Shown here: in pieces, positions 3,709 to 28,449 of the stretch
Position numbering within the stretch: the stretch's first letter is position 1
How the letters are laid out: the number at the start of each line of letters is the position of its first letter
IMG/VR virus record: IMGVR_UViG_3300032820_000076
Span: 1 to 29,023 of that record
Direction: 5' to 3' (one strand)
Source: a virus
Length of the DNA stretch: 29,023 nucleotides
The notes under the pieces: model-generated
What the model saw: the letters and a program-made list of their open reading frames with translations, nothing else
Databases searched by the model: none
Told to the model about the DNA's origin: nothing
Program-made: the position numbers and the translations under genes

Positions 3709-3732
3709 TTAAACATCCTAAATTACTTAAAT

Positions 3733-3740: not shown

Positions 3741-3758
3741 TTAAAATTGAAGAATCTA

Positions 3759-3923: not shown

Positions 3924-3927
3924 ATAT

Positions 3928-4526: not shown

Positions 4527-4570
4527 ATCAGCTCCCAAGTAAGTGTTTAACTAATTTAACCTATACAACT

Positions 4571-4598: not shown

Positions 4599-4629
4599 CC
4601 AAAAAATTAAATGTATAGTTTATTTTTTC

Positions 4630-4637
4630 AATAAATA
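4630..4637 (+). promoter_or_regulatory. Candidate T4-type late promoter for the virion operon
   Basis: AATAAATA lies 22 bases before the gp25 start and matches the T4 late consensus TATAAATA at seven of eight positions. An AGGA ribosome site follows at 4652-4655. T4-like late genes such as 25 and 6 are known to use this single -10-type box with the phage late sigma factor. A TATAAT at 4641-4646 overlaps the same stretch but has no -35 partner. The box lies in the divergent 4527-4659 region opposite promoter P2. Confidence 0.6.
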
Positions 4638-4659
4638 CATTATAATCTATTAGGATACC

Positions 4660-5034
4660 ATGGCAAAGACATTATTTAAAGGTTTTTCAACGGTCCAAGG
4701 ACCAAAAACTAGAAAATTACACGATATAGAGTTAGCAAAGCAGGATTTAAAAAATCACTTTCATACCAAAAGAGGTGAAAGAATTATGAATCCTGGGTTT
4801 GGTTCAATGATTTGGCAATTGATGTTTGAACCATGGAACGATACTACTGAAGAAGCAGTTAAAGAAGATTGTATCGAAATTATAACAAAAGATCCTCGAT
4901 GGAGATTAGAAGGAATAGACACTTATTCAAATGACAATGCGTTAAGTGTACAATTAAGATTATTTTACCAACCTACAGATCAACTGGAAGTTATGGCGTT
5001 AACGTTTGACCGAGAAATAGAAGAGGGATTATAA
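4660..5034 (+). CDS. 25: Baseplate wedge subunit gp25
   Basis: This small wedge protein has the GPW/gp25 fold, which forms part of the T4 baseplate wedge core with gp6 and gp53 near the tail tube/sheath start. The 124-residue length matches the family (T4 gp25 is about 130). The hallmark block runs from LKNHFHTKRGERIMNP (31-46) through GFGSMIWQLMFEP (47-59), with the RGERxMxPxFGxxIW pattern characteristic of gp25. The C-terminal strand pair (LSVQLRLFYQ and EVMALTFDRE) completes the beta sheet. Despite the historical name gp25-like lysozyme, the domain is structural. It leads the plus-strand virion operon, with the next gene starting four bases after its stop. Confidence 0.95.
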   Translation: MAKTLFKGFSTVQGPKTRKLHDIELAKQDLKNHFHTKRGERIMNPGFGSMIWQLMFEPWNDTTEEAVKEDCIEIITKDPRWRLEGIDTYSNDNALSVQLRLFYQPTDQLEVMALTFDREIEEGL

Positions 5035-5038
5035 ACAA

Positions 5039-8000
5039 ATGGCTACACGACAAGATGTTTTATTTGCCGCAGAAGATTACATAGCAAAATATCAATCATT
5101 TGCTCAATCTAATTTTCAAGCATACGACTTTGATACACTAAAAGCGGCTATGGTAGATTATATACGATTAAACTACCCCGAAGATTACAATGATTGGATT
5201 CAATCATCTGAATTTATTAGTTTAATGGATCTAATAGCCTTTATGGGCCATAATCTTGCTTTTAGAACTGATTTTGCTACTCGCGAAAACTTTATGGAAA
5301 CTGCTCAAAGTAGGGATTCAATATTAAAATTAGCTAGATTCCTCGGATATAATCCTACTAGAAATATAAATTCCAGTGGCGTGTTAAAAATTAAAACAAT
5401 ACGAACAACAGAATCGTTAATTGATTCTGATGGTAATAATTTATTAAATGTTGATGTTACATGGAACGATGCAACAAATGCAAATGCATACGAACAATTT
5501 TTAATGATATTGAATTCTTCTTTTGGAAGTACTACACAATTTGGTACTCCGTTTAAAGCAGAAACTATAGATGGTGTTAAAACTGAAATTTATAAAATGA
5601 ATTCACAAACAAAACAAAATGTGACTCATACGTTTGCGGGTACAGTTCAAGGAGAAGCAATACCATTTGAAATAACAAATGTTGATGTAGATGCAACATT
5701 AGGTTTATTTGAACCCTATCCAGATCCAGATTCTGCTATGCGGTGTTTGTATCTTAATGACGGTAGAGGGAATTCTAGTGCTAAAACAGGATTTTTCTTT
5801 TACTTTAAACAAGGTTCTTTAGAATTTAAAGATACATTAATAACACGACCAATTGAAAATCAAGTTATAGATATTACTGCTGAAAATATTTCTAATAATG
5901 ATGTATGGGTGCAAACTATTGATCAAGCAGGTGCAATAACAACAACTTGGACTCCAGTAGATACGGTTGTCGGATCTAATGTTATTTTTAATGCAGTTGA
6001 TAATAATATTAGGGACATTTTTCAAACAGTTACTAATATTAATGATTCTATTAGTATTAAATTTGCAGATGGTAGATTTGGTAATGCTCCAAAAGGAATT
6101 ATTCGAGTATGGTATAGAGTAGGCAATGGAGAAGAATATACTATTAGAACAGATGATATTCAAAATATTGAACTTACTATACCTTATTTTAGTAAACATG
6201 ACTTGCAATTATATAATTTAATTGTTACACTAGATTTAGAAGAACCTATAAAAAATAGTTCAGTAACAGAATCAAATACTAGCATACAAACTAAAGCACC
6301 ACAGGTATACAGTACACAAAATAGAATGGTATCAGCAACTGATTATGCAGTATATCCTTTACAAGCATCGACAAATATTATAAAAATTAAAAGTACAAAT
6401 AGAGTGCATAGTGGACATACACGATATGTAGATATAAATGATCCGACTGGTACTTATAAAGATTTAACAATATTTGGTGATGACGGATATGTATTTGAAG
6501 AAGAAACATTTTTACGAAAAACATTAACATTACCGTCTTCATTGAATGCAACAGATATAATAGAACAGTATATACAACCATATTTAGAAGAATCAGAAGT
6601 ACAAAACTTTTATTATCAAAAATATAAAAGTGATTTTGTTTGGTCGGGCGGTACATCAGCAGATGATTTATATTTTACAACATCAGACGAAGGAACTCCG
6701 GCTTTAGCCGCAAAAATGTGGGTTTGGAAAAAAGTAACTGGTTCTGCTAGACAAGCAACTGGATATTTTGAAAAGGGAGCAACTGCACCGGATATTGTTG
6801 CTATTGGACCAAATTCATTGGATTCAATTGGTAAATTTTTAATTGAAGGCGCAAATATAGAATTTGCAGAAGTTGATGCAAATGATCAATTTGTAGTAGG
6901 ATCAAAAACTACTTGGGCAAGCATAACCGGAGTATACGGAGATGGTAGAGGCGTTACAAGTTCTGCATTAGGTTACACAGGTAAAACTAAAGAAGAATAC
7001 GGTACTGTATCTTTATCTAGAAATATACCTAATAATGTTAGAATAAAACGTATAGCACCTGCATATAATAATAAATTTAGTGCAACAGAAATTACAGCAA
7101 TTAAAGATCAGTTAGAACTTAATAATTCATTTGGTTTACGATATGATCATAGAAACAATCAATATGAAATTATATTAGGTATTGATTTAGGAGAATCCCA
7201 AGAAACATCTTTTAGTTTAACAGAAAATACTTCAGGAACACAATCAGATAATAGTTATATAGTAAGAGTAGAGTTTCAAACAGAGCAATGGGTGTTTCTA
7301 GCAAGGGCTATAAAATATAATTTTGGGTCTGTAAAAAATGTTAGATTTTTTAATCAACGATTAGATAATAAAGTTAGTAAAATAACAAAAAAGTCAACAA
7401 AAGATGAAATTAGAGTATTAGATATTAATTTACAACCTCTTACAACATCAGGTGGAGGATTAGGTACATCCTTATTAACTGCAAATTATAATTTTGATAT
7501 AGAAGGATTTTATACCTATGATGATGGTTATACAGATCCACGTAGAGTACTATTAAAATTTGCAGATACTAATAAAGATTATGTAATTGATGATCCGTTT
7601 GCGTTTGAAAGTATTGTAGGATCAAATGAAATTTATGTTGCAGATGAATTAGTCGACAACTATGTTTATAAAACGCTAATGACTACACCACCGCCAACCC
7701 TTGCCGACGGTACTATAAAATATTGGGTATCGTCTACTTCGTATGATTTGGCAGAAAAAATTGAATATAATGGTGCAGAATATGAATCCAAAATTACAGG
7801 TAATTTAGGTGTGTTACCAACTGATACATCTAAATGGTCGTATATTAGAGATTTAATTTATGCAAAATATACAGGTCGATCTGGTGTGCGATTTAAATGG
7901 AAGCATGCCGCAAGCGAAGAAACACGAATTGATCCAGCGGTTTCAAATATTATTGATACTTTTGTATTAACAAATACATATAATTTAGAGTTTAGAAATT

Positions 8001-8590
8001 GGCTTAAAAATGATAGGCGAGCAAAATATAGACCTTTGTCTCATACTACAGAAGATTTAAAAACAATGTTTATAGCATTAGAAGATGCAAAAACCTCATC
8101 TGATACAATCATTTATAAATCATGTGAGTATAAAATTTTATTTGGAACAGAAGCAGATTATGCATTGCAAGCAAAATTTAAAGTAGTAAAAAATCCGATA
8201 TCAAGTTTAACAGACAATGAAATAAAAGCAACAATAGTAGATCATATTGATGATTATTTTGAACCAACTAATTGGGATTTTGGTGAAACATTTTATTTCA
8301 CAGAACTTGCGGCGTATATTCATAGAAATATGATAGGAGTACTTTCATCATTGGTTATTGTACCAACTAATTCAGATTCAAGATTTGGTAATATGTTTCA
8401 AGTTACCCCTGATGCACACGAACTTTTTGTTAGTGCCGCAAAAGTGTCTGATATAGATATAGTAGATTCATATACAGAAACAAATATAAGAATTGCCTCA
8501 GGACTTGTCGAAACACCTACAGCAACAACAAGTATAACAGGTGTTGCAGTTGGAACAGGATCTAGTTCAAGTGGTGGTAGTTATTATTAA
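5039..8590 (+). CDS. 6: Baseplate wedge subunit gp6, enlarged (1183 aa)
   Basis: In T4, gp6 forms the inner ring of the baseplate that links wedges together. The N-terminus (QSFAQSNFQAYDFDTLKAAM, then DLIAFMGHNLAFRTDFATRENF) and the C-terminus (FGETFYFTELAAYIHRN about 1080-1096, then LSSLVIVP, MFQVTPDAHELFVSAA) are typical of T4-like gp6. The family call also fits the position right after gp25. T4 gp6 is about 660 residues, so this one is nearly twice as long. The extra length is mostly in the middle and the C-terminal half, including a module at 892-936 that looks like a CBM5/12-type carbohydrate-binding unit. It ends in a Ser/Gly tail (SSSSGGSYY), common in marine relatives. A GAGGGA at 5023-5028 inside the end of gp25 is the likely ribosome site. 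Confidence 0.93.
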   Translation: MATRQDVLFAAEDYIAKYQSFAQSNFQAYDFDTLKAAMVDYIRLNYPEDYNDWIQSSEFISLMDLIAFMGHNLAFRTDFATRENFMETAQSRDSILKLARFLGYNPTRNINSSGVLKIKTIRTTESLIDSDGNNLLNVDVTWNDATNANAYEQFLMILNSSFGSTTQFGTPFKAETIDGVKTEIYKMNSQTKQNVTHTFAGTVQGEAIPFEITNVDVDATLGLFEPYPDPDSAMRCLYLNDGRGNSSAKTGFFFYFKQGSLEFKDTLITRPIENQVIDITAENISNNDVWVQTIDQAGAITTTWTPVDTVVGSNVIFNAVDNNIRDIFQTVTNINDSISIKFADGRFGNAPKGIIRVWYRVGNGEEYTIRTDDIQNIELTIPYFSKHDLQLYNLIVTLDLEEPIKNSSVTESNTSIQTKAPQVYSTQNRMVSATDYAVYPLQASTNIIKIKSTNRVHSGHTRYVDINDPTGTYKDLTIFGDDGYVFEEETFLRKTLTLPSSLNATDIIEQYIQPYLEESEVQNFYYQKYKSDFVWSGGTSADDLYFTTSDEGTPALAAKMWVWKKVTGSARQATGYFEKGATAPDIVAIGPNSLDSIGKFLIEGANIEFAEVDANDQFVVGSKTTWASITGVYGDGRGVTSSALGYTGKTKEEYGTVSLSRNIPNNVRIKRIAPAYNNKFSATEITAIKDQLELNNSFGLRYDHRNNQYEIILGIDLGESQETSFSLTENTSGTQSDNSYIVRVEFQTEQWVFLARAIKYNFGSVKNVRFFNQRLDNKVSKITKKSTKDEIRVLDINLQPLTTSGGGLGTSLLTANYNFDIEGFYTYDDGYTDPRRVLLKFADTNKDYVIDDPFAFESIVGSNEIYVADELVDNYVYKTLMTTPPPTLADGTIKYWVSSTSYDLAEKIEYNGAEYESKITGNLGVLPTDTSKWSYIRDLIYAKYTGRSGVRFKWKHAASEETRIDPAVSNIIDTFVLTNTYNLEFRNWLKNDRRAKYRPLSHTTEDLKTMFIALEDAKTSSDTIIYKSCEYKILFGTEADYALQAKFKVVKNPISSLTDNEIKATIVDHIDDYFEPTNWDFGETFYFTELAAYIHRNMIGVLSSLVIVPTNSDSRFGNMFQVTPDAHELFVSAAKVSDIDIVDSYTETNIRIASGLVETPTATTSITGVAVGTGSSSSGGSYY
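7712..7846 (+). other. CBM5/12-like module inside gp6
   Basis: Codons 892-936 of gp6 encode YWVSSTSYDLAEKIEYNG, then AEYES, then a proline and KW about 18 residues later. The order W-x-S-x-x-x-Y, hydrophobic-Y-N-G-x-x-Y, P, W is the aromatic layout of small CBM5/12 (chitin-binding-type) modules. This is pattern recognition, and binding is not shown. Confidence 0.45.
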
Positions 8591-8601: not shown

Positions 8602-11600
8602 ATGGCAGATTATTCTAGCAACAATACTGATGATCAGGTTAATAATACTATACCTGGTTCTACAAGTAAGAACATCAAAAAACGATCTACTTTTGATTTA
8701 TTACCTGAATATCTTCAATCCGATACTAATAAGAAGTTTTTAAATGCCACATTAGATCAAATGATTTTAAGTGGTAATCCTAAAATAGAATCGGGTTATA
8801 TAGGTAAAAAAGTAGGTGCAATTCGATCATCGGCAAATGATGTTTATTCTGAAAGTCGAACAACTCTTAATAATAGGTATCAATTAGATCCTACGGTTGT
8901 AAGTCAAAACCCATCTACTTTAGAATATGAATCTGCTATTCCATATGATGATATTATTAGTAAGTTAAAATATCTTGAAGCCAATACAACAAATTTAGAT
9001 AAATTATTTTCTGATTATAATTATTCTTGGCGTCCTCCAATTGACGTTGACAAGTTTATTAATTGGAATAGTTATGTATGGTTACCATTTGGGTTGCCTT
9101 TAGTTGGATTACATGGTGAAGAAGCAAGTGATATTAACGGAAAACGCACACATACAACATCTGCTCAAGTTATACATGGAAATAGACAATTAACTTTAGA
9201 AAACGGAATGCGTTTAGCATTTCATGATGATAATAAAACATATCTAGTAACTGGCGTAGGTAAAGAAATAACATTAATCGATGAAAGTACATTATGTTCA
9301 GTAACTGAACACTCAATGGGTATTGCTCCAGGAACTCTTGCTCTTGGTACACCTGATACAGGAACTGGCGTTCTTTCCTCACTAAACATAACCAATTATG
9401 GAACAGGATATACATATAATCCATTTTGGAATATATATGATCCAAGTGGTGGTCCAGCAACTCATGCAATGGTAGAAGGTGAGATTGACGGAGAGGTAAC
9501 AGCAAATGTTAGTATTACAGAAGCAGGTACTGGGTATGCAACATCGGGGGTTGTATTATTAGTTATGGGTGGACAAAAAGCAATGCCACCGTATATAAGT
9601 GCTAATAAAGATGTACATTATGTTCATGAATATATTTGTATGGAAAAATGTGCAAGAGACAATAATGCATGGTCTAGGGTTAACAATTGGTATCATATTG
9701 ATACTGTCCAAGCAGTAAACACAATGTTAAATCTTACTAAGTCTTTTAAGATCGATGGTATTATTGTTGATGATGATTATGCACAACGGCCTATTATAGA
9801 ATGGGAGCGCGATTTACATTTATATAATTATGGTACCCATTATAGAGCACCAGTTGATATTATTATAACAGAATCAATGGATCCTGCAAATGGAACAAAT
9901 GGATTTTTATTATCGGGCGGGTCGGCCACACCAGAAGTTCATGATGGATATACAGTTCAAGATAATGATAGAGTGTTATTTGTTAATGCAAGCGATACAT
10001 ATAATAATAAAATTTATAAAGTTAATACATCACAAACTGGTGCAACAGCCTTAACATTAGAAACAGATGGTAGAGGAGCAGGACCGCCTACTCATGGTGA
10101 TGTTGTTACAAGTTTAAATGGAACTACATTACAAGGTAAGGATTATTGGTTTGATGGAAGAAATGGCCCAACAGCCTTAACTTCTTCAAATGCTACTTGG
10201 AGAATAACACAAGAAAAAGGTATTAAAAATGTCCCAGTAAAGTTTGAATTATATGATTCAACATTTCAACCACTATCAGAATATAATGAAACAGACTTTT
10301 TAGGTAATACAGTTTTTGAATATTTAGAAGATAAAACTACTGCTAATAGATTTGAAGATAAATTTTTAGGGTTTGCGTTAACATATGCAACTACAAATTA
10401 TTTGTCCTCTACTAATACATCTAATATAATGTTTAATAATTCACATCAAGAAACAATGTATTTGTATGATAGGGGAACTACACCAAAAAATATTTTAGGA
10501 TTATATTACTTAAGAAAATTTGATAGAGATGCATCAAATTATGATTTTAATAATGGTTGGGAACAAAGTTATAAACAAATTAGAACACCTATTACTGTAA
10601 CCCAAGACGTTACAAATGCAGACGATGACTTTGTTGTTGATTTAGGCACAACAAACTTTGAACCGGAGCGAGATTATTGGTTACAATCAACTGCAACTGG
10701 TTTTGAATTTTATTTAAAATCTGCATATGGTTTTGAAAAATTAACAGAAATTAATCCAACTCTTTATCTTGCAAGAAATAAGACATACACATTTGAAATA
10801 ACCAATGGAACTAAAGCATTTCAAATACAAGATGTAAGTGCCTCGGCATACAGTACGGGTGTTACAAATAATAATACACATAGCGGAATAGTTACATTTG
10901 CTATTGCTGAAGCAGAAGCAAATGATATATTATATTATTCTTCTCCTAGTGGAACAGGTAAAATTATTATAATAGACGAAGTTTTAGAGCAAGGATGGCC
11001 AGAAGTATTTCATGATGGTGTTAAATTAAAAAGAAATATACATTATATTTTTAATGATAAAAATGTAGTTATACCATACGAAAGCCCTGGTACAGACGAA
11101 ACAGTATCGGATGGTGGTGTGCCAGTATTTGCCCCATCAGAACAAACCCAAAGTACTGAAAATTTATTAACAGTAGGTGATGTAGTAGATATAAAATTTT
11201 ATACAACAGATACAAGTACAACAGACGAATGGGCGTATGATGTTCCGAACGGACTTAAAAATAATCCCGGTAACGAAGTATTAGGTCAAGTTCAATATGC
11301 AGAAATATTTCCACATTTTATTGATGTATTAGATAAGCAACCTGGATTAATAGGACCAGCGTTTGGTGATAATAATTATAGAAATTTAGAGAGCGAAAAA
11401 AGATTTGGTGGAATAATAAATCAACAAATATCTCCTTTACTTAAATCAGGATTAATATTAGGAAACGAAAATTATGATTTATTATTAGCACTCGATTATA
11501 CTGCTGATAGTTATAACGTATTTAAAAAGAAGTTTGTACAAAAAATAGAACAGTTATATGCCTCAATGGCTTCAGGAACAAAAATAAGTGCTCTAGTAGA

Positions 11601-14600
11601 TCAAGCATTATATGATCTTAATTTAGGCAAAAATAATACATTTCCATTTGCTAATAGTGATATGGCGTATTATTTTAATATGGTTGAAAAAACATATACA
11701 GTTACAACATCTGCTGATACATTTACTTTACCTAAAACAATTACACAAACAAATCAGTATCATAATCATGTGTATGTTTATACAATAGATGCCAATGGAG
11801 TCGAAACATTTGAGACTGAATTTACATTAGATCCTAATGCAAATACTATTACATTAGGAACAGCGATTGCATCAGGAAAAGTTGTTATAAAAGTTAGTAT
11901 TGATGAGGGATTAAGTTTTATACCTCCTACTCTTGCTAAATTGGGTGTAACTCCTGCATATGTTCCAAAAAGTTATATTGATAATACTGGTACTAGAACA
12001 GTGGTTATCATTGAAGGACACGACGGATCAAAAACAGTAGCATTTGAATCATCTATCACTGGTACAGGTTCTGTTTTATCTCATACAATTACAGATTATA
12101 GAGACAAAGCACTATTAGAATTTGAAAATAGAATTTATGGTCATATACAATCTGAATTTAATACAAATGATGATAATGTAGTTACGTATTCTCACAGTCC
12201 GGAACCTAAACGTAAAGATTTGAGTTTATTACCTGGCAAATACAGAATAACGCCTTATACAATAAAAAATAGAAACGATTTTTATGACAATTATTTTAAT
12301 GTATTTAAACTTGCTCGAGGTATAACATTATTAGGAAATGCAGGATATGATGCAAATAATAAATTTACATGGAATTATGGTGCAGATGCCAATGCCAACG
12401 GAATAGGTTATTGGAGAGGTATTTATAAACATTATTTTGATACAGATAGGCCACATACTCATCCATGGGAAATATTAGGATTTATTGGAAAACCTTTATG
12501 GTGGGATACCAATTATGAATGGGTTAATGTTACTAAACGGAATAATATGATTTTTGCTTTACAAAAAGGTATTATATCCGAACCCGGACAACCTATTGTT
12601 CAAGATATTAATGTTGCAAGACCTAGTGCTACCTTTCCTGTTGCTACTGACGGTACATTACAAGACCCTGTTACAGCAACTTTAATGTCGGCACCAACAT
12701 CTTTAAATGCCCAAGCAAATTGGTCTATAGGTGATATTAGTCCTGTTGAAACAACATGGCAACGGAGTTCTTTATTTCCGTATGTAGAAAATCAATTTTT
12801 GTTTTCGATTAATCCAGCAAAATTTTTCGAAAAATATTATGACACAAAAGATAGAATAACAGATGGTGGAAGTAAAGCAATAACAATTCAGGTAACAACA
12901 GCACCTAAGGCTGGTAATACTACTGGAACAGTATTTTATATTGATGGTGTCCAACAAAAAAAGTTAGTATTACAAGCAGGAAATGTATATACATTTAATT
13001 TAACAGATGCATCTTATAGTGGGCATGATTTTCAATTATCAGAAGCATGGGAAGGCCAAGTTGTTGGGCAGTACACAACAGGCTGGGACGAGGCAACCGA
13101 TGCAACTAAACCTACATTTTCGCCAACTTCATCTACCCCAGAAGTATTATACTATTATGATTCACAGGCCGGGCTTTATCATTTACAAGAAGGTGGCGTA
13201 ATAGAAGTATTACCTGTATCACATGAAAAACAAATTATATCTAATAAAACAAAAAAACGACACAACTCAAATGAATTATATATTCATAATGAAGAAGATG
13301 TTAATAGTTTATCTAGGCGAGTATTAGGTTTACAACAACCTATAGTAGATAGATTAATGTTTTTGGGTAATGATATATATACTGATTTTGCTAGACAATT
13401 GAGACAATTGAATACAAAATTAAGTTATAAAATGCAAGGATTTTCAAAAAAATCTTCTATATCTATGTTAGCAGATAGTTTGCAATCTGAAAAATCTAAT
13501 AACTTTATACCAAATGACGATTTAACTATTAAATTTCACAATTCAGCACCATATAAAGAATATAGTTATAGCGGAGTTGAAATTATTCAAACAGCAAACG
13601 GATATGCAGTTTATGGATATAATAATAACAAACCATATTTTTTAACACAAAAAACGTTAAAAACAACAATTTCTCAAATTACAATAAGCGAAACTAATAT
13701 TCAATTATATACTGAATTTGCTGAAGGCACCGATCGAATAGATTATGGAACAGAATTTACATCAGCAAATGATGTTTATAATTTTTTACATGCGTATGGA
13801 AAATATTTAGAAAACATGGGTTTTGAATTTGCAAATCCTAATCAAGATGGTGCATATGAAGATTGGGGGTTAACTGCTCAACAATTTATATTATGGTCTG
13901 AGGCAGAATGGGGCAACGATACATCTATTAAATTAAGTCCTGCAGGTAGTTTATTATATTTCAAACATGATCACGGCCACATAAAAAGTAATGAGTACGA
14001 ATATGGTAGTTTTTATTTAGATGTAAATAAATCTTTATTTAATTCAACAACCGTAGATATAGATAGACAATTAAATTATATTTCTGTTAAACCAAAAGAT
14101 GACGAAAGGGCAATTTATTGTGCCTCACTTGTTATTTGTGATTACGAGCATTTATTAATAATCAATAATAAAACTATTTTTGATGATATGATTTATTATC
14201 CTATTTTAGGAGATGCAAAACCTAGATTTAAAATAGAATATTTAAAATCCCCCGACTGGAATGGTACATTACATGCTCCTGGATATTTTGTATACGAAGA
14301 TACAATTTATGAAAATTTTGATAAAACAGCAGATAGCATAACTTCTAATTATTTTGCATCAGAAGAAACTGCTCTAAATAAAGATACAATAAGTGTTGCT
14401 AGAAAAAATATAGGATATGAAAAGAAACAATTTTTAAGAAATATGCGGCTTTCTGAAGATGTTCAATTTCAGTTTATGAAAGGCGTTAGCCATTTAAAAG
14501 GTACACCAGAAGTTTTTAATAGGTTAACTAGAAGTACATTTTTGCTTGAAGCAAGTGTTGATATTAATTTACAAGAAGAATGGATGTTTAGATTAGGCGA

Positions 14601-17600
14601 ATTTGGCCCAACAACTACTCAAACAACTAAAGAATTTACACTTAAAGATACTGATATAAAAGCAAATCCACAATTAATAAATTTTGGGGAAATTTACGAA
14701 GGACAAGCAACAGACTTTGATTATGACACAACTATTAGTATGTTAGGAGGAGATGGTAGATGGTTAGAACAACCATCAACTAATCCTGCTGTTCAATTTA
14801 ATACTAGAGTAAAATTTGATCAAAGTATTGATACAATAGCAGAAGTAGAATTATACGAAAAAGATTTGCCTAATGCTGGTTATCCTCGAATAGAGGAAAC
14901 AACATATCAAACGTTTAGATCAGACGATTTACCTGCATTATACGACAAATATAAAAATGACGATAGTTCTTTATTATATAAATTACTTCAAACCCCTAAC
15001 TGGAAAGATACTTATACATACGCAAAAGATTATTATGTACGATACAAAGGTAAACGATATATTTCTACTCGAATATTAAATTCTGCCGCTCAAAGTTTTT
15101 TTGGTACGGTAAATGCAAAATATACAAAAACATATTCATCCAGTGGTAATTTAGCAGAAATTGTTTTAGAAAAATGTCTTTTTACAATAGATGGTGTTAC
15201 TAAAATGACATCAACTACAGATCCATATCTTTATGGTATTACTGGTGTTACTGCTAGATTTGGTGAATATGATTTTACTTATTATATTCCTTCTTCACAA
15301 ATATCAGATAGTACAGTTGATGCAAGTGTATCTAAAGGCGCCGACGCAAATGGTAATTTTACATATATTTTTACATTTGCAGATGGGCAAGTTCCTGCTG
15401 TTAATGTACCTGCTGATGATGATAAAGTGTACATGTCAGCATTTAATTATAAAACAGATGCAGAAGCCGCAGATAATACTGTATTAGATAGGTGGATAGA
15501 AACTGGAGAATCGGGACTATTTAATGTATGGACAGCAGACGCAGGAGCAGGCGATTGGGCAACATTTAATCTTCAAGATGATAATTTTGGGATTGAACAA
15601 ATTTGTAAAGGATATGAAACAGGTGACGAAGCTCTTATTAAATTAGGAATGCCTCATTATTTGTCTGAAGGTGATTATGTTATGATAACAGGTGCAGAAA
15701 ACAATCCTGCACTAAATGGAATTCATAAAGTAACTGGCTTTCCTACAGGATCAGATTGCCAAACTTGCGGATTAAGAGAAGATAAACAATTTTATATAGA
15801 TGAATTTGTTGGAAATAACGAAGTATATGGAAAAGTATTTGCATTTAGAAAATCACGATTCTCTGGATATTCAACAATGTTTGCTTCTATTGCCGATCCA
15901 AAATATTCATGGATAACAAATAATTATGCCTATGCTGATGCATACTATGATATTCAAAACCAAATAATAGGTGCTACCTCTGCGGCAGGATCATATAACC
16001 CAGAATTTGCTGGAGGCCAATCATTTACTGTAACATCTTCTTATGCTTTATTATATCCTGCAACAACAGCAGATTTGGATGTATTTATAGGAGAATTTAG
16101 AACTCAATTTCAACCTGGAAGTGGAGGCACAAAAGCATGGGAAGTTATAGGAACTAGTATTGTATTTCATGCTGAAAATTTAGGTGGAACGTACATAGCA
16201 GGTCAACCCATTGTAATTGTATATAAAAATAGAACTACAGGTTGGGGTTCGTTTAAGTTTGATGGAGTTAATAGAACATTTACTGAAATAAACTCACAAC
16301 AACCAAAAGCAGATACAGGACAGTTAGCAAATGTTATTGTATACGATTATGAACAAAATAAAGAATTAGCAAGAGCAGAAGTATGGGATCCTTTCAAAGG
16401 TATTGTTCCGGGAATTGCAGAAAAAGAAATTGATATTATTTCTGGTTATGACCAAGCATTATATAATGCAACTACCCAAGACGAAGAAGCGTTAACAACA
16501 ACACGATGTTGGGGGCAACACGAAGTAGGAATATCTTGGTGGAATTTAAATACTGTTAGGTATATAGAATATGAACAACCATCTGATTTAGATTACACAT
16601 TTAAACATTGGGGAGACCAATTTCCAGGTTCTTCAATGGATGTTTATGAATGGACTAAAAGTCCGGTTGCGCCTGATGAATGGATTACATTAGTTGCCGG
16701 TGATTTTGAAATAGAAGGGGAAATTGCATCAGGTGAAGTATACACAAAAGTTCTAAGTGGTGTTACACATTATTATTGGGCTGAAGAAGAAGCATTGAAT
16801 CCTCAAACTGGTCAAGTAGTTCCATATTATTACTTTTGGGTTAAAAATAAAACAACAGTTCCACAAACACAATCTCATAGAGAAATATCTACAAAAGTAA
16901 TTGCAGAATATTTAAATGATCCAACCGGCAACGGAATTTTTTGGGCGGCCCCAGGCGGAGCATCAAATATTATAACAGGAAATGTTGGAGATCGCTTAAC
17001 TCAACATTCTGTTTTCCAAATAAATTTTACAAGTGATACAGAAGATGAACATAAAGAATGGATTACAATTCGAGAAGAAGATCAAGAAACAGATGTTCCA
17101 GATAGATTTGCAAAAAGATTACATGAAAGTATTTTGGGCGTAGACGAAGATATAGATATTTTAACGGTAGCAGGAATAGAAGACGATCAAAATTATACAT
17201 ATACAACACCAACAGGATCAGGACTTTTTACATTTGTCAAAGCCTCAGCTAGTTTAAGTTCTCAAGATAGCGATGTAAGAGATGTGAAGGTTAGCACAAA
17301 CGGAACTAAAATGTTTATGTTAGGTAGGGCCAATGATAAAGTTTATGAATATTCGGTATCAACAGCATTTGATATTTCAACAATAACTTATGTTCAGTCT
17401 TTAGATATCAGTGGGCAAGACGTATCGTCAAATAGTATAGAATTTAGTCCAGACGGAACTATATTGATCATGTTAGGTCAAAATGATGATAAAGTTCATG
17501 AATATGCTTTAAGTACAGGCTTCGATCTTTCAACGGCTTCCTTTACAGATAGTTTTGATATTAGTACCCAAGAACTCCAGCCTTATGGTTTGGCATTTAA

Positions 17601-20600
17601 TAATGATGGAACTAAAATGTATGTTACAGGTTGGGCAGGTGATGATATTAATGAATATACATTAACAACAGGTTTTGATATTTCAACAGCATCATATTCT
17701 CAAAATTTTGATGTTAGTTCTCAAGCCGCAAAACCATCAGCGGTACAATTTCAATCAGATGGAACTATAATGTATGTTTTAAATGGAACTGGTACTCCAA
17801 CAATATTCAAATACACATTATCAACAGCATTTGATGTTTCGACAGCATCCTATTCAAATAAATCGTTTGAGGTAACAGATCAAGAAACTAAAGCAAGAGG
17901 CTTTTGCTTTAGTAATAATGGACTTCAAATGTTTCTTTGTGGTTGGCAAGGAGATGACGTTAATGAATATACTGTACATGGTGCTTCGACAACATATTCT
18001 GCTAAAAAATTCAATTATGATTGGAACCAGCAACTAGAATATAAAGAAAGAAATGTTGTTAAAAATAATACTAAATTGTATAAAACACATAGAGAGTTGG
18101 GTTTAGTTAAAACAAATACTAAATTATCTGTTGATAATCAAGTTAATACAATACAACTTAGAATAGGTGAAAAAGCAAACGAACTTACATTTCCAGCACA
18201 TATTGATATAGGAACACCGCCTGCAGAATCGAACACATACGGATTGCCATATGAAAATATATTAGCCTACGCATATGCTAATATAGTAAATGGTAAGGTA
18301 GATAGTATTACTGTTAACAGGGGCGGACAAGGATATAACTCAGCAACAAAACCAACAATTACTATAGGTGATCCAATTCTTGAAGGAGGAGTTCGGGCAA
18401 CAGTTGAAGATTCAGATATAACAATAGTAAATGGTGAAGTTACTGCAATTGCTATTCAAAATGCAAATAAGGGATCAGGATACGAACAAAGTTATGCAAT
18501 TATAGACGAAGGTGAATCAAATGAAGAAATTGTAGAATTAAAATATTTTGATAGATTTGCTACACGGTTATTTAATTCAGATGTTAATATATTATCGAAT
18601 AGTGATTTTGAACAGAAAACTACTGCGTTTTGGGATACAAAATTAGGAACTTTAGACACAACTGGTAAAGTTACTGTAGTTGCAATTTATGCAGGTGGTA
18701 CTGGTTATACAAGTATCGTTGCCGCAACAACTGGTGGTTCGGGTACAGGACTAACTCTTGATATAACTCAAATAGGCGGCGTAATTCAATCAGCTACGGT
18801 TGTTAATGGAGGTGGAGGATATACAGTAGGAGATGTAGTAGCAGTGGCAGGCGGAACAGATGGTACTTTTACGGTCTCAACTGTTAATTCAAATGCAACA
18901 ATTTATGGTAATGCAAGTGGTGTATATACTGGTGATAGTGTAAATGCAACGCATTATGTAGGTCAAAGAGGTTTGAAAAATTCAACATTGTCCGGCGGTA
19001 CGGTTTTAGAAAGTATACAATATCAAGCAAAAGCATTATTTAAAACAAATACACCATTAGATTCTGTAAAATTAAAATATGGACATTCAGCAACAGATGT
19101 GGATTTTGATGCAATGACATCTGTCATCTTAACACCACAAACTTCATCAGAAGAATTAACTATAGGAACAACATTAGTTTATAGTGTACAAGGAGAATTT
19201 ATTGCTAGTACAGATGATTATCATGCATTATGGTTAGAAGTAAATCCACCAGATTCAAATGGTTTTATATTACATATTGATAGTTTAGAATTTACAAATC
19301 CTGCTATTGGTGATAGAATTGTGGTTGGTCGAGGTGCTCAAAGTACAACAGCATCTGCTCATTTACAATATGCAACATTTAAAGAATTAGGCAATTTTGC
19401 TAGACAACGGTGGCAAGAATTATTAACGTACGAATGGATCGATGATAGAAATATATATGTAGATACACCTAATATGGTGCCTAATTTACGGTTGCATGAA
19501 ATATTTAGATATGGTGGACAAATTCGTCCATATAAACAAAGTTGGATTAAAAGTAGAATTAAAGCAATACGAGCATTAATTCAAAATGCAAATAAGAATT
19601 TATTAAAGATAAATTTAAGTGATTCTTATCTTAATTGGAAAAAACATTTAGGTACTTCATTTGAAAAAGGTAATTCAACATTTATTCCTCAAGATTACTG
19701 GAAATATGTAGATTGGTTCCATCCAGATTATACTATTAGTTCTTCGTCTGTTGCTCAATATACTGTTACAGAAAGAAATAATTTATATGATGTAGACGAA
19801 GATGTATATTCTGTTGTTAGGGTAGATAGTGATGATGCAGATGGTAATTGGGCGTTTTATCAATGGGTCGATGACAGTTGGTTTAAAATTGGTAAGCAAA
19901 ACGGAACAATTGAATTATCAGATTTATTATATGATGTTAAGGATGTAGATGCAGGATGGGATGCCGCAGAATATGATATAGGTGGATGGGACAAAAATTA
20001 TACTAATGAATTATCCGCAATACTTAAAGGATTACATGAAGATATTTTTGTAGGTCCTTATAAACAGTATTATAAAGAGTTATTTTTTACAATTATACAT
20101 TTTATCTACGCAGAACAAACTAATTTAGATTGGGTTGCTAAGACTACATTTTTACAATTACAACGAAGAACACCTGGAGCTCTTACTCCTAAAACGTTTG
20201 ATGTAGGTAGTGAAGAAGATATTTTAGATTATCTTAATGAAGTTAAACCGTATCATTCAAAAATTGAAACAATTTTTGATGCTAGAACATTTGATGAAGA
20301 AATTAATGCCTCAGCAGATGAGGTAGTAGATATAAGAGTACAAACTAATGCATCTGGTAGTACAGAAGCATCTACATCTAGGGCATTTAGAATGTTTATA
20401 GATAATACCGGTACAAGAATATATGAAACAATGTTAGATGCTAATAAATCAACTACAGCAGAAGTACTTGATTCGATTGAAACAGAAATAACTGTGGTTG
20501 CTTCGGGTGGATTTCCAGCATCTGGCGAAGTTGTTATTGGGGCTGAACGAATTAAATATGCTTCTACAAGTAGTAATATACTTCATTCGTGTATACGAGG

Positions 20601-20790
20601 AGTAGCAGGGACATCTGCGGCAACTCATGCTTCGGGAGTAGAAGTAGTAGTAGCAGGACCAGCAGTAGGTATTCCAGTTGATCCAGATCCAGAAGCATAT
20701 AATGCATTTAATGATGATGGAACAACAACAATACAAAATAGTACAAATTCTCAAGCGGCTCTTATAAATGCAGGAAAAGGAACCATATAA
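8602..20790 (+). CDS. Giant baseplate protein in the gp7 position (4062 aa)
   Basis: A single uninterrupted frame covers 12.2 kb. The first 170 residues (RSTFDLLPEYLQSDTNKKFL, YQLDPTVV, TTNLDKLFSDYNY, WRPPIDVDKFINWNSYVWLP) and the C-terminal part (RWQELL, LRLHEIFRYGGQIRPYKQSW, NEVKPYHSKI at 3879-3888) match the large structural protein that follows gp6 in marine T4-like phages. That is where T4 places wedge protein gp7 (about 1030 residues). It is about four times longer, because modules are inserted: a GxGY beta module (254-324), a fibre-type DNDRVLFVN...NKIYKV domain (445-537), degenerate cupredoxin-like domains (718-793, 1427-1539), a five-repeat propeller-like block (2884-3126), two more GxGY units (3226-3302, 3354-3428) and a GERIKY-type module near 3974-4010. 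Expected location: the baseplate periphery. The gp7 equivalence rests on position and conserved ends. The start has only a weak GGA ribosome site. Confidence 0.88.
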   Translation: MADYSSNNTDDQVNNTIPGSTSKNIKKRSTFDLLPEYLQSDTNKKFLNATLDQMILSGNPKIESGYIGKKVGAIRSSANDVYSESRTTLNNRYQLDPTVVSQNPSTLEYESAIPYDDIISKLKYLEANTTNLDKLFSDYNYSWRPPIDVDKFINWNSYVWLPFGLPLVGLHGEEASDINGKRTHTTSAQVIHGNRQLTLENGMRLAFHDDNKTYLVTGVGKEITLIDESTLCSVTEHSMGIAPGTLALGTPDTGTGVLSSLNITNYGTGYTYNPFWNIYDPSGGPATHAMVEGEIDGEVTANVSITEAGTGYATSGVVLLVMGGQKAMPPYISANKDVHYVHEYICMEKCARDNNAWSRVNNWYHIDTVQAVNTMLNLTKSFKIDGIIVDDDYAQRPIIEWERDLHLYNYGTHYRAPVDIIITESMDPANGTNGFLLSGGSATPEVHDGYTVQDNDRVLFVNASDTYNNKIYKVNTSQTGATALTLETDGRGAGPPTHGDVVTSLNGTTLQGKDYWFDGRNGPTALTSSNATWRITQEKGIKNVPVKFELYDSTFQPLSEYNETDFLGNTVFEYLEDKTTANRFEDKFLGFALTYATTNYLSSTNTSNIMFNNSHQETMYLYDRGTTPKNILGLYYLRKFDRDASNYDFNNGWEQSYKQIRTPITVTQDVTNADDDFVVDLGTTNFEPERDYWLQSTATGFEFYLKSAYGFEKLTEINPTLYLARNKTYTFEITNGTKAFQIQDVSASAYSTGVTNNNTHSGIVTFAIAEAEANDILYYSSPSGTGKIIIIDEVLEQGWPEVFHDGVKLKRNIHYIFNDKNVVIPYESPGTDETVSDGGVPVFAPSEQTQSTENLLTVGDVVDIKFYTTDTSTTDEWAYDVPNGLKNNPGNEVLGQVQYAEIFPHFIDVLDKQPGLIGPAFGDNNYRNLESEKRFGGIINQQISPLLKSGLILGNENYDLLLALDYTADSYNVFKKKFVQKIEQLYASMASGTKISALVDQALYDLNLGKNNTFPFANSDMAYYFNMVEKTYTVTTSADTFTLPKTITQTNQYHNHVYVYTIDANGVETFETEFTLDPNANTITLGTAIASGKVVIKVSIDEGLSFIPPTLAKLGVTPAYVPKSYIDNTGTRTVVIIEGHDGSKTVAFESSITGTGSVLSHTITDYRDKALLEFENRIYGHIQSEFNTNDDNVVTYSHSPEPKRKDLSLLPGKYRITPYTIKNRNDFYDNYFNVFKLARGITLLGNAGYDANNKFTWNYGADANANGIGYWRGIYKHYFDTDRPHTHPWEILGFIGKPLWWDTNYEWVNVTKRNNMIFALQKGIISEPGQPIVQDINVARPSATFPVATDGTLQDPVTATLMSAPTSLNAQANWSIGDISPVETTWQRSSLFPYVENQFLFSINPAKFFEKYYDTKDRITDGGSKAITIQVTTAPKAGNTTGTVFYIDGVQQKKLVLQAGNVYTFNLTDASYSGHDFQLSEAWEGQVVGQYTTGWDEATDATKPTFSPTSSTPEVLYYYDSQAGLYHLQEGGVIEVLPVSHEKQIISNKTKKRHNSNELYIHNEEDVNSLSRRVLGLQQPIVDRLMFLGNDIYTDFARQLRQLNTKLSYKMQGFSKKSSISMLADSLQSEKSNNFIPNDDLTIKFHNSAPYKEYSYSGVEIIQTANGYAVYGYNNNKPYFLTQKTLKTTISQITISETNIQLYTEFAEGTDRIDYGTEFTSANDVYNFLHAYGKYLENMGFEFANPNQDGAYEDWGLTAQQFILWSEAEWGNDTSIKLSPAGSLLYFKHDHGHIKSNEYEYGSFYLDVNKSLFNSTTVDIDRQLNYISVKPKDDERAIYCASLVICDYEHLLIINNKTIFDDMIYYPILGDAKPRFKIEYLKSPDWNGTLHAPGYFVYEDTIYENFDKTADSITSNYFASEETALNKDTISVARKNIGYEKKQFLRNMRLSEDVQFQFMKGVSHLKGTPEVFNRLTRSTFLLEASVDINLQEEWMFRLGEFGPTTTQTTKEFTLKDTDIKANPQLINFGEIYEGQATDFDYDTTISMLGGDGRWLEQPSTNPAVQFNTRVKFDQSIDTIAEVELYEKDLPNAGYPRIEETTYQTFRSDDLPALYDKYKNDDSSLLYKLLQTPNWKDTYTYAKDYYVRYKGKRYISTRILNSAAQSFFGTVNAKYTKTYSSSGNLAEIVLEKCLFTIDGVTKMTSTTDPYLYGITGVTARFGEYDFTYYIPSSQISDSTVDASVSKGADANGNFTYIFTFADGQVPAVNVPADDDKVYMSAFNYKTDAEAADNTVLDRWIETGESGLFNVWTADAGAGDWATFNLQDDNFGIEQICKGYETGDEALIKLGMPHYLSEGDYVMITGAENNPALNGIHKVTGFPTGSDCQTCGLREDKQFYIDEFVGNNEVYGKVFAFRKSRFSGYSTMFASIADPKYSWITNNYAYADAYYDIQNQIIGATSAAGSYNPEFAGGQSFTVTSSYALLYPATTADLDVFIGEFRTQFQPGSGGTKAWEVIGTSIVFHAENLGGTYIAGQPIVIVYKNRTTGWGSFKFDGVNRTFTEINSQQPKADTGQLANVIVYDYEQNKELARAEVWDPFKGIVPGIAEKEIDIISGYDQALYNATTQDEEALTTTRCWGQHEVGISWWNLNTVRYIEYEQPSDLDYTFKHWGDQFPGSSMDVYEWTKSPVAPDEWITLVAGDFEIEGEIASGEVYTKVLSGVTHYYWAEEEALNPQTGQVVPYYYFWVKNKTTVPQTQSHREISTKVIAEYLNDPTGNGIFWAAPGGASNIITGNVGDRLTQHSVFQINFTSDTEDEHKEWITIREEDQETDVPDRFAKRLHESILGVDEDIDILTVAGIEDDQNYTYTTPTGSGLFTFVKASASLSSQDSDVRDVKVSTNGTKMFMLGRANDKVYEYSVSTAFDISTITYVQSLDISGQDVSSNSIEFSPDGTILIMLGQNDDKVHEYALSTGFDLSTASFTDSFDISTQELQPYGLAFNNDGTKMYVTGWAGDDINEYTLTTGFDISTASYSQNFDVSSQAAKPSAVQFQSDGTIMYVLNGTGTPTIFKYTLSTAFDVSTASYSNKSFEVTDQETKARGFCFSNNGLQMFLCGWQGDDVNEYTVHGASTTYSAKKFNYDWNQQLEYKERNVVKNNTKLYKTHRELGLVKTNTKLSVDNQVNTIQLRIGEKANELTFPAHIDIGTPPAESNTYGLPYENILAYAYANIVNGKVDSITVNRGGQGYNSATKPTITIGDPILEGGVRATVEDSDITIVNGEVTAIAIQNANKGSGYEQSYAIIDEGESNEEIVELKYFDRFATRLFNSDVNILSNSDFEQKTTAFWDTKLGTLDTTGKVTVVAIYAGGTGYTSIVAATTGGSGTGLTLDITQIGGVIQSATVVNGGGGYTVGDVVAVAGGTDGTFTVSTVNSNATIYGNASGVYTGDSVNATHYVGQRGLKNSTLSGGTVLESIQYQAKALFKTNTPLDSVKLKYGHSATDVDFDAMTSVILTPQTSSEELTIGTTLVYSVQGEFIASTDDYHALWLEVNPPDSNGFILHIDSLEFTNPAIGDRIVVGRGAQSTTASAHLQYATFKELGNFARQRWQELLTYEWIDDRNIYVDTPNMVPNLRLHEIFRYGGQIRPYKQSWIKSRIKAIRALIQNANKNLLKINLSDSYLNWKKHLGTSFEKGNSTFIPQDYWKYVDWFHPDYTISSSSVAQYTVTERNNLYDVDEDVYSVVRVDSDDADGNWAFYQWVDDSWFKIGKQNGTIELSDLLYDVKDVDAGWDAAEYDIGGWDKNYTNELSAILKGLHEDIFVGPYKQYYKELFFTIIHFIYAEQTNLDWVAKTTFLQLQRRTPGALTPKTFDVGSEEDILDYLNEVKPYHSKIETIFDARTFDEEINASADEVVDIRVQTNASGSTEASTSRAFRMFIDNTGTRIYETMLDANKSTTAEVLDSIETEITVVASGGFPASGEVVIGAERIKYASTSSNILHSCIRGVAGTSAATHASGVEVVVAGPAVGIPVDPDPEAYNAFNDDGTTTIQNSTNSQAALINAGKGTI
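9361..9573 (+). repeat. GxGY beta module, copy in N-terminal part of the giant protein
   Basis: Codons 254-324 hold two units: NITNYGTGYT (262-271) and, about 40 residues later, SITEAGTGYA, each a beta strand followed by GTGY and a hydrophobic strand. The same unit recurs at 18277-18507 and 18661-18885 and in the fibre protein near 22320 and 22680-22825. Confidence 0.6.
10753..10980 (+). other. Degenerate cupredoxin-like domain 1 in the giant protein
   Basis: Codons 718-793 show NPTLYLARNKTYTFEI, then FQIQD, TGVTNNNTHSG, FAIAEA and ILYYSSPSGTGKIIII. Virion proteins of marine T4-like phages carry cupredoxin-like domains with this order (NPTLxVxRGxTYTF, TGVTNN, LYYxCxxHxGMxGxI). Here the CxxH/M copper-ligand segment is replaced by SSPSGTG, so copper binding is unlikely. 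The domain call comes from motif order only. Confidence 0.55.
12880..13218 (+). other. Degenerate cupredoxin-like domain 2 in the giant protein
   Basis: Codons 1427-1539 show a strand ITIQVTT, VFYIDGVQQKKLVLQAGNVYTFNL, SGHDFQLSEAW, TTGWDEATDATKPTFSPT and VLYYYDSQAGLYHLQEGGVIEVL. The pattern VxxGNxYTFxL...HxFxLS...LYYY...G follows the cupredoxin-like order with one His retained (in SGHDF), but the Cys and Met ligands are absent. It is probably a structural beta sandwich. Confidence 0.5.
17251..17979 (+). repeat. Five tandem ~49-aa propeller-like repeats in the giant protein
   Basis: Codons 2884-3126 contain five repeats of about 49 residues. Each unit has a core NDGTKMYVxG, then GDDxNEY and an FDISTASY linker to the next strand. 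Examples are STNGTKMFMLG, SPDGTILIMLG, NNDGTKMYVTG, QSDGTIMYVLN and SNNGLQMFLCG, with DKVYEY, DKVHEY, DDINEY and DDVNEY following. This fits blades of a beta-propeller and resembles repeat proteins in other marine phages. Whether five blades close a ring or are part of a larger one cannot be told from sequence. Confidence 0.75.
18277..18507 (+). repeat. GxGY beta module, second region of the giant protein
   Basis: Codons 3226-3302 contain SITVNRGGQGYN followed by PTITIGDP, and then AIAIQNANKGSGYEQSY. These are two units of the strand-GxGY-strand pattern, lying directly after the propeller block and its linker. Confidence 0.6.
18661..18885 (+). repeat. GxGY beta module, third region of the giant protein
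   Basis: Codons 3354-3428 hold VVAIYAGGTGYTS, GGSGTGLTLDIT, and SATVVNGGGGYTVGDVV, then DGTFTVSTV. The spacing between the two GGxGY motifs is about 45 residues, as in the other copies. Confidence 0.6.
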
Positions 20791-20793
20791 ATA
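20786..20793 (+). promoter_or_regulatory. T4-type late promoter overlapping the stop of the giant gene
   Basis: TATAAATA is a perfect match to the T4 late promoter consensus and contains the TAA stop of the preceding gene (20788-20790). The next ATG is 18 bases on (20811), with TAGGG at 20798-20802 as ribosome site. Initiation here would give the 209-aa gene and the fibre gene their own late transcript. Confidence 0.6.
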
Positions 20794-20810
20794 TTAATAG
20801 GGTAATATAA

Positions 20811-21440
20811 ATGAAAAGTAATCTTAATATAGACATGCAAGGACACGTTAAAATATTTGATGTAAATACTGGGGAAATCCTTGTCGATAAAGCAAACAAA
20901 ATACATGCAGAAAATATGAGTAGATGTATTGCAACTACATTAAGCAATAAAGACCATTTTTCTTTATACGAAATGCATTTCGGAAATGACGGTACAATTA
21001 TAGATGCTCAAGGAAATATTACATATAGAGAACCTAAAGTTACTTTAGCAAATGATGATTTGTATAATGATAGATTTTATAAAAACTTTGATATATTAGA
21101 TGCAGATAATACAGATATTACAGAAAATAAAGTAGATATTTCGTATACAGATGGTAATTCATATACAGATATTATAATAACATGTACTTTAAATTATGAC
21201 GAACCTGTAGCAAGCGATACAAATTTTAATTTAGCAAGTGCAGATCAAAAAGCAGATGATGCTACAATTGATGGAAATTTTGTTTTTGACGAATTAGGTT
21301 TAAAATCAAAATCAGCAGATGGACGAAATGAAGGATTACTATTAAGCCATGTAGTATTTCATCCAGTACAAAAAAGTGCAAACAGAAAGATTCAAGTTCT
21401 ATACACAATTAAGGTAAGAACTAACTATACAGCAAGTTAA
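20811..21440 (+). CDS. Virion-associated protein of unknown function (209 aa)
   Basis: This gene lies between the baseplate giant and the fibre-like gene and is preceded by the perfect late box. The protein starts MKSNLNIDMQGHVKIFDVNTGEILVDKANKI, a beta-hairpin pattern often seen in small virion proteins. A central block LYEMHFGNDGTIIDAQG (52-68) is followed by acidic Asp/Asn-rich strands (DADNTDITENKVDISY, TDIIITCTLNYDEP), and then LLLSHVVFHPVQKS and QVLYTIKVRTNYT. No signal, coil or catalytic motif is visible. The FGNxGTxxDxxG block is one I associate with conserved hypotheticals of marine T4-like phages. A baseplate-to-fibre connector is a reasonable positional guess, not a finding. Confidence 0.72.
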   Translation: MKSNLNIDMQGHVKIFDVNTGEILVDKANKIHAENMSRCIATTLSNKDHFSLYEMHFGNDGTIIDAQGNITYREPKVTLANDDLYNDRFYKNFDILDADNTDITENKVDISYTDGNSYTDIIITCTLNYDEPVASDTNFNLASADQKADDATIDGNFVFDELGLKSKSADGRNEGLLLSHVVFHPVQKSANRKIQVLYTIKVRTNYTAS

Positions 21441-26265: not shown

Positions 26266-28449
26266 ATGGCCGAATATCAAGATAGGACCGGTTACAACGT
26301 AGGTATTACCGGCGGGGCTGGTGGATCTGAACCACCAGATACTATCGAAGCTCAATGGTTAAGAAAATTAGAAAGAGATTTGTGGGTTAGATTTTGGGGT
26401 CCTGGAGTTGCTTGTTCTGATTGGACGGGGACAGGCGAAACCGAATACGATCGAGCTACAGGATGGAACCAATCTGCTAGTTATGACGCAGGCACATCTG
26501 GCACAGGAACAGCTCGTGCAGGTATGGGCGACATCCAAGGAAACCCCGATTCTCATATTTCTGCAGGTTCGGGCATATCAACTACTGATCCTCGAGATGC
26601 AATTGGGTATGGAAAATATACAGTTCGACAGGGTACTAATATAACTAATGCTTCTAAAGAAGATCCTTGTGTGGTTACTTGTGCGACAGCTCATGGCTTA
26701 TTAGATGAAGATCCTGCACACGAAGGTTCCCCCACAGGATTATCTGTTCCTAATGAAATACAAATAGTAGGTGTTCCTGATACTAGTATGTATCAATTAA
26801 ATGAACAATATTTTTTTGTTAAAGTTATTAGTGCTACTGAATTAGAATTATATGCTGATGAAGGGTTTACTACCACATATAATGCTAGTACCCATCAAGA
26901 ATGGGCAGGAACAGAAGGATACGTTAATTTTGTTGTAGATTTTGAGGCAGGAACCGGTGATGCAGGTAATTACGAACGAACAACTACTATTGCTAGAGAT
27001 CAATATATTGCATTACAACAAAGAATTAATGCGGCTATAAAACGTACAGGACAGTCTACTCAGGCTACAGGAACAAGTGTCGGAACAATAGGTGTTCTTG
27101 ATCTTGTTCAAACTAAAGCAATGTACGAATCAGACGGAAGTACTCTTGCTAGTAGTTTAAATGAAGATACAGGCAGAGTTCGAGATGCTCATGTAAATGC
27201 AATGTCTGACGAAATAGAACGGATTGGAGGAGGTAGTTCCGCCAGTGAGTCGGCGCCTCCAAATACAAATACAACTTCACTGGGTCATTTTAATTTTCAT
27301 AAATTGCTTGTTAACGGAATATATGCTCCTTATTCTATGAATAATTTTGATTTGTCTGTATATAGTGAAAATATAGATCAGGCAAGTGGATCATTTAGTA
27401 ATAATTGGGGCTCAGATACTTGGCAAGCAGGCGGACAATCGCCCCCACCGTATAATATACCGTGGAGCGACAATGGTGGATCTGAATACGGAAATGATAG
27501 ACCATTTCTGGAAGCTCGAATGACTTTTAACGATTGGGATCATATGCGATACTGGTTTAATCAAGGAGGTTGTTGTGCATTTCATCCTGACTATGCGGCC
27601 GCAGGCGCGAACCCGCCGCCGAACACGAATCCGTCAGCGACGTGGGGAAGCTGGATGTGGCAAAATTTAGCCAAAGCTAATAATGGTCCGGCTCCAGCCG
27701 CCGCAAAAGTTTTTATTGGCCAACTTAATCCTTATCATGAAAATGCCTCACTTATAAGTTCCGGGCAAGTTACTTTTCGTAATGGAGGATCTAGCATAGG
27801 TTGGGGTGTTACTGCTGATGCTCCTAGAGTACATGCAATAGGAGATCAAGCCAATGCATATTTTGCTGGAACCGGTGCAGACTCAACTGACGGAATAACA
27901 ATAACAGGACTTTCAACCACAAACATGGCACAAGGTGATATATTACATTTGGGTGTGTGGTTAGGTGAAATAGAAACCATCGATAGTGCCTCAGCAGTTA
28001 CTCTTTATCGGATAATACGACAAATAAACGGAACTGAGTATGATCCTGCCTCCGATGCGATAGGAGGAACCCCTGCATCAGTATGGGCATGTAGTAAATG
28101 GTATCGAGCATGTCAATATGATGGAAATGCAGGATTATATGGCGATAATGTTCCTTTTCCTAATAATGAAACCTGGCCCGCACCGCGTTCGTCTGGTGAC
28201 CCGTATATACATTTTGATTGGAGATTTGTTAAAGATCCAAGTCAAACAAACAAGCCATGTATTTTTTATAGAATGATGTATGATAATGCAAGTGTCCATG
28301 CTACAGTTCATGGTGTAGGAACTATGCGAATGGGTAGCAGGTGGCCAGATACTGTAGGATATTTTTATCCTGAACAAGGAAGTCCTCCAGTAGTAGTTAA
28401 AGATAATGCATCATCGGCTGAAAACCATGACGGTTTTAATAGAATTTAA
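26266..28449 (+). CDS. Virion-like protein of unknown function (727 aa)
   Basis: This gene follows the fibre gene by 13 bases, with AGGAA as ribosome site. The N-terminus includes TIEAQWLRKLERDLWVRFWG, a Trp/Arg-rich segment. Residues about 130-205 contain TNASKEDPCVVTCATAHGL and QLNEQYFFVKVISATELELYADEGFTT, a small beta domain seen in marine phage virion proteins. Next is a helical stretch (YIALQQRINAAIKRTGQS, 250-ff) and then a large Trp-, Gly- and Asn-rich C-terminal half with SWMWQN, FIGQLNPYHENASLIS and several Cys (GGCCAF, WACSKWYRACQY). It reads like an adhesin or decoration protein, but I do not recognise the family. A short GC-rich patch interrupts it at codons 444-463. It shares the operon with the 116-aa gene after it. 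Confidence 0.8.
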   Translation: MAEYQDRTGYNVGITGGAGGSEPPDTIEAQWLRKLERDLWVRFWGPGVACSDWTGTGETEYDRATGWNQSASYDAGTSGTGTARAGMGDIQGNPDSHISAGSGISTTDPRDAIGYGKYTVRQGTNITNASKEDPCVVTCATAHGLLDEDPAHEGSPTGLSVPNEIQIVGVPDTSMYQLNEQYFFVKVISATELELYADEGFTTTYNASTHQEWAGTEGYVNFVVDFEAGTGDAGNYERTTTIARDQYIALQQRINAAIKRTGQSTQATGTSVGTIGVLDLVQTKAMYESDGSTLASSLNEDTGRVRDAHVNAMSDEIERIGGGSSASESAPPNTNTTSLGHFNFHKLLVNGIYAPYSMNNFDLSVYSENIDQASGSFSNNWGSDTWQAGGQSPPPYNIPWSDNGGSEYGNDRPFLEARMTFNDWDHMRYWFNQGGCCAFHPDYAAAGANPPPNTNPSATWGSWMWQNLAKANNGPAPAAAKVFIGQLNPYHENASLISSGQVTFRNGGSSIGWGVTADAPRVHAIGDQANAYFAGTGADSTDGITITGLSTTNMAQGDILHLGVWLGEIETIDSASAVTLYRIIRQINGTEYDPASDAIGGTPASVWACSKWYRACQYDGNAGLYGDNVPFPNNETWPAPRSSGDPYIHFDWRFVKDPSQTNKPCIFYRMMYDNASVHATVHGVGTMRMGSRWPDTVGYFYPEQGSPPVVVKDNASSAENHDGFNRI
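27595..27653 (+). other. GC-rich patch within the 727-aa gene
   Basis: Bases 27596-27653 hold 42 G or C out of 58 (hand count), in strong contrast to the AT-rich surroundings. The segment starts with the octamer GCGGCCGC and uses GCG, CCG and ACG codons where neighbours use GCA, CCA and ACA. It encodes AAAGANPPPNTNPSATWGSW, a Pro/Asn/Ala linker. The reading frame is not disturbed. Confidence 0.8.

Follow-up and report, generated by a model that had tools for sequence, protein, structure and literature searches.

The sequence analysed here is the 29,023-base virus record IMGVR_UViG_3300032820_000076 of IMG/VR, taken at its full length and referred to as the window; its source is treated as a marine phage. 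Downstream of genes for gp25-like and gp6-like baseplate wedge proteins, the window holds an open reading frame (ORF) for a giant protein of 4062 residues, whose family, PHROG_10938, carries the label 'virion structural protein'. Pfam and PHROG profile searches of the window proteins gave no match of a baseplate profile to the giant protein itself. Within this protein lies a block of repeats that is confidently predicted to fold as a closed five-bladed β-propeller, and that is missing from the same site in some relatives (Table 1). Related loci are referred to by L numbers, each collection holding at most the best 80 loci of its scan.

Table 1. Features of the propeller cassette, its host protein and the neighbouring wedge genes in the window
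Feature	Position	Strand	Basis or remark
Predicted five-bladed β-propeller cassette, residues 2874-3128	17221..17985 (end approximate)	+	AlphaFold2 model; missing at same site in L081, L085, L086
N-terminal closing strand, ~LFTFVK, predicted fourth strand of last blade	17227..17244	+	Model strand E5-10; split-blade pattern in relatives
Repeat unit 1	17269..17421	+	51 aa
Repeat unit 2	17422..17574	+	51 aa
Repeat unit 3, full consensus signatures	17575..17727	+	51 aa
Repeat unit 4, two extra residues	17728..17886	+	53 aa
Repeat unit 5, partial, three strands only; N-terminal strand completes blade	17887..17985	+	Unit mapping, model
Stretch with higher DNA identity to L082/L083, recombination tract matching domain	~17205..18010	+	60-nt profile, ~87-100% per 60 nt, outside ~80%
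Giant virion structural protein, 4062 aa, cassette host	8602..20790	+	ORF; PHROG_10938 family, E=1.3e-297
gp25-like baseplate wedge protein (context)	4660..5034	+	PF04965 E=3.9e-8
gp6-like baseplate wedge subunit (context)	5039..8590	+	PHROG_10646 bits 1022

An earlier reading of the DNA letters (the original prediction) had placed five repeats of 49 residues at 17251-17979. Five in-frame repeats are indeed present there, inside the giant ORF. The block is slightly larger than proposed (17221-17985), its start at 17221 being the closing strand GLFTFV, and the measured period is 51 residues (153 nt) rather than 49. The self-identity of the block at a lag of 51 residues is 0.29, compared with at most 0.164 in block shuffles and 0.131 in the best window of the remaining protein. 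Of the five units, only R3 has the signatures DGTKMYV, DDxNEY and FDISTASY in complete form; in the others they are degenerate.

The structure of the block was predicted with AlphaFold2 from an alignment of the block and 59 relatives. The model contains 20 strands, with a predicted local distance difference test score (pLDDT) of 95.5 and a predicted template modelling score (pTM) of 0.92, and we read it with confidence as five four-stranded blades, in agreement with the propeller-like fold first supposed. The first modelled strand (E5-10) precedes unit 1 and the last unit has three strands, so that the ring would be closed by strand exchange between its two ends. The same split blade occurs in relatives, where positions 33–51 of the unit profile match at the start of the block and positions 2–32 at its end. 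Foldseek matched the model to other marine phage proteins with template modelling scores (TM) up to 0.94; among the matches listed, solved structures reached a TM of ~0.5 only and were mostly WD40 propellers. By sequence profile, the archaeal S-layer propeller 1l0q is the nearest solved structure (E=1.6e-10) and the sole match among PDB sequences at E≤0.001. The YVTN/lactonase-type propellers (PF10282; 1l0q) share a profile relation and the DGTK-type turns with the block, but they are seven-bladed, whereas the block has five blades of 51 residues.

The sizes of 280 related blocks fall into discrete classes: 251 measure 225–275 residues, two about 510 and four about 757, that is, 5, 10 or 15 units, and therefore five units make up the closed domain. 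The longest arrays (L045, L063, L075 and L080) are unbroken runs of 15 units and are probably three fused five-bladed propellers; the 10-unit arrays of L172 and L175, Polaribacter (Bacteroidota) proteins, are probably two fused propellers.

The likeness of the repeats had been taken as a sign of recent duplication. The pairwise identity of units R1–R5 is just 22–49% at the amino acid level and 44–63% at the DNA level. In contrast, the same units are ~90% identical across related phages; the window block as a whole matches that of L082/L083 at this level when compared position by position. Nor does the number of units vary freely among relatives, since 251 of the 280 blocks hold five and a few hold 10 or 15. 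Internal duplication as a recent event and variation of repeat number are both ruled out by these values. On the comparison of units and phages, the recent event is whole-domain exchange between phages and not duplication of units.

Evidence for such exchange comes from relatives with and without the cassette. In L081, L085 and L086 the reading frame runs straight through the site: the empty site reads NYEYDDGAGSTTIYT in L081 and NYTYTASNGSTTSYT in L085, where the window has NYTYT, ~259 residues and then GASTTYS. Judged by the flanks (85–92% nt identity), L085 and L081 belong to the closest relatives of the window. The block is thus self-contained between conserved parts, as first proposed, in a virion protein adjoining the baseplate wedge genes. 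The insertion point is an inter-domain linker or loop of the giant protein; a model of the empty-site region of L085, made to place this loop, had a pLDDT of 36 and was not used.

L082 carries a block 94.4% identical to that of the window in nucleotide sequence, with flanks at 80–84%. The synonymous divergence (dS) is 0.12 in the block versus 0.61–0.70 in the flanks, and therefore the cassette alone was exchanged. The 60-nt identity profile climbs near 17205 and drops near 18010, at the borders of the domain. The block of L083 is 93% identical, yet its windows near 20760-21240 are equally high, and identity alone is therefore less special for L083; dS (0.18 versus 0.58–0.69) still separates block from flanks. 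L007 and L081 are 97.8% identical across 6039 bases up to the junction, where L007 has a cassette (80% nt identity to that of the window) and L081 has none; the contig of L007 stops within the cassette, and therefore only the left junction is visible. These alignments show that the cassette is gained, lost and swapped as one unit by recombination between diverged marine phages. A foreign base composition was also considered, but the GC content of the block (0.340) is inside the range of the giant gene (0.277–0.365) and is uninformative.

The cassette is not confined to one protein but recurs in unrelated baseplate proteins. In a quick, unrooted tree with support from the Shimodaira–Hasegawa-like approximate likelihood ratio test (SH-aLRT) only, the phage baseplate cassettes form their own clade (11 rows, support 100). 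The clade includes blocks in a PAAR spike-tip protein of L008 (PF05488, E=5.6e-7, with gp5 domains in the preceding gene), in PF23786 wedge subunits of L009 and L012, and, for L006 and L010, in distant giants close to the C-terminus. The block of L006 is 70.5% identical to that of the window, versus 27% for the flanks. In L086, L194, L198 and L206, a second propeller subfamily occupies a different loop of the giant, which follows a DIRVQTN-like motif; here the block of L086 is 82–86% identical to the other three and the flanks 27–30%. Among 80 giants fetched by a conserved domain, six carry a propeller: five have all five units, and the sixth (L180, on the L007 contig) is truncated where the contig stops. 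A separate observation concerns L176 (Synechococcus phage S-SKS1), in which a 1601-aa open frame with propeller units lies at 2617-7419, two genes after gp6, where the record has no annotated gene.

Relatives of the cassette are also cellular. A scan of one genome per species (84,980 species) gave 288 relatives, and the best 80 are mostly from SAR11/Alphaproteobacteria and Bacteroidota, at 36–53% identity. The repeat unit and the layout of five units per block are the same as in the SAR11-type FDxSTAS/DGTKMF propeller family. Several SAR11 proteins of 700–850 residues combine the propeller with an autotransporter β-domain (PF03797; L104, L115, L131, L144 and L174), and DUF4347/cadherin giants also occur (L101, L113, L118 and L136). 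In these cases the propeller is on an exported cell-surface protein, whereas the phage copies are on virion proteins, the baseplate cassettes forming a separate clade. The block of L086 groups with the SAR11 protein L136 (support 98 in the same tree), which suggests that phages acquired propellers on at least two separate occasions from a pool that they share with bacteria. Marine bacteria, with their pool of surface proteins that carry propellers, are the probable source of the cassette; the tree is unrooted, and the direction from bacteria to phage is inferred from it. A literature search on SAR11 propellers or autotransporters returned nothing relevant, and the matches found for PAAR with propellers concern type VI secretion and toxins and were not used.

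What would such a cassette do? We consider it fairly probable that the closed propeller is a mobile cassette of a giant baseplate-associated protein and works as an exchangeable accessory adhesin. Recombination inserts, removes or swaps the whole propeller in the inter-domain linker; one of its faces, made of the variable b-c and d-a loops, would bind a host-surface ligand and tune adsorption; and a swap would alter the contact with the host surface. The b-c and d-a loops make up one face of a propeller by convention. Variability is concentrated on these loops, with a mean entropy difference of 0.7 in the close clade and 1.4 in all 60 sequences, and none of 20,000 permutations was as high. The ratio of nonsynonymous to synonymous divergence (dN/dS) is 0.27–0.34 in the block versus 0.15–0.18 in the flanks. 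The occurrence of the cellular relatives at the cell surface, the single variable face and the raised dN/dS, together with the precedent of phage phi11 described below, support an accessory role in adhesion, which the cassette may well play; binding of a host glycan or protein, as the original prediction had suggested, is plausible by that precedent.

Several points weigh against this adhesin reading. Most giants of the family are without a propeller, which is therefore dispensable. Weaker structural constraint could by itself account for the variable face. A profile search of PDB sequences found no relation to phi11 Gp45. Finally, gene order and PHROG naming are the grounds on which the giant protein is placed at the baseplate of the virion. 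A domain that bulks, stabilises or protects the periphery of the baseplate without any ligand would fit the minority of carriers among otherwise similar giants, and a neutral insert could be tolerated, as this one is, at several sites of several proteins. However, the repeated whole-domain exchange between diverged phages, the faster protein change and the single variable face suggest selection on a surface, and we regard a purely structural or decorative role as unlikely. A bolder proposal, which we think quite unlikely, is that marine phages repeatedly capture the surface propellers of their own hosts (autotransporter/cadherin-type, from SAR11 and related bacteria) and use them as exchangeable heads of baseplate wedge and spike-tip proteins, which would then bind the partner of the host propeller or the host propeller itself.

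An enzymatic role, as a small lactonase-like, gluconolactonase-like or glycan-degrading propeller acting on the host surface, would agree with weak Pfam matches to Lactonase (PF10282; 25.6 bits versus a curated cut-off of 21.7) and SGL. Both cover only part of their profiles, however, the block has five blades and not seven or six, and no solved enzyme appears at a TM well above 0.5 among the matches listed, so that such an activity seems very improbable. Equally improbable is a passive, selfish spread of the cassette with no benefit to the phage: although the repeats provide homology for recombination and marine DNA is very rich in members of the family, nearly all copies preserve the frame, the number of blades and the limits of the domain, and every classifiable carrier in the cassette clade is a giant virion protein, a wedge protein or a spike-tip protein.

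For the exchangeable adhesin, the closest known counterpart is the platform of Gp45, a baseplate adhesion protein of Staphylococcus phage phi11 (PMC4901313), which also has five four-stranded blades closed by an N-terminal strand and has a cavity that could take N-acetylglucosamine; propellers are also named in PRD1 P2 and phiKZ gp131C (PMC4901313). Gp45, however, is a homotrimeric protein with stem, platform and tower, whereas the present propeller is a cassette within a 4062-residue protein with no detected sequence similarity. Recent shuffling of whole domains is known in phage receptor-binding proteins (PMC10684548), so this kind of event in host-interaction proteins is already known. In the present case, in contrast, the domain is a propeller, and its carriers are spike-tip proteins, wedge proteins and giant proteins encoded beside the wedge genes, which is new relative to the literature found. 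These cases show that domain swapping is not limited to tail fibres but extends to wedge-adjacent giants and to the spike tip formed by PAAR proteins. How marine phages recognise their hosts is poorly understood, especially in the case of SAR11 phages. A clean cassette with natural pairs with and without it, found in several baseplate proteins and related to bacterial surface proteins, offers a tangible candidate for such an adhesin.

Two other genes of the window are worth recording. A 727-aa ORF (26266-28449, + strand) has no Pfam or PHROG match; the ORFs that seem to correspond to it in L082 (698 aa) and L083 (690 aa) are not alike in length or at the C-terminus, despite 94% identity between these two contigs, and its product is possibly a fibre or host-contact protein. 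The window also encodes a ribose-phosphate pyrophosphokinase (1467-2393, - strand; PF13793 E=7e-52, PHROG_619); such genes can belong to counter-defence by rebuilding of nicotinamide adenine dinucleotide (NAD+).
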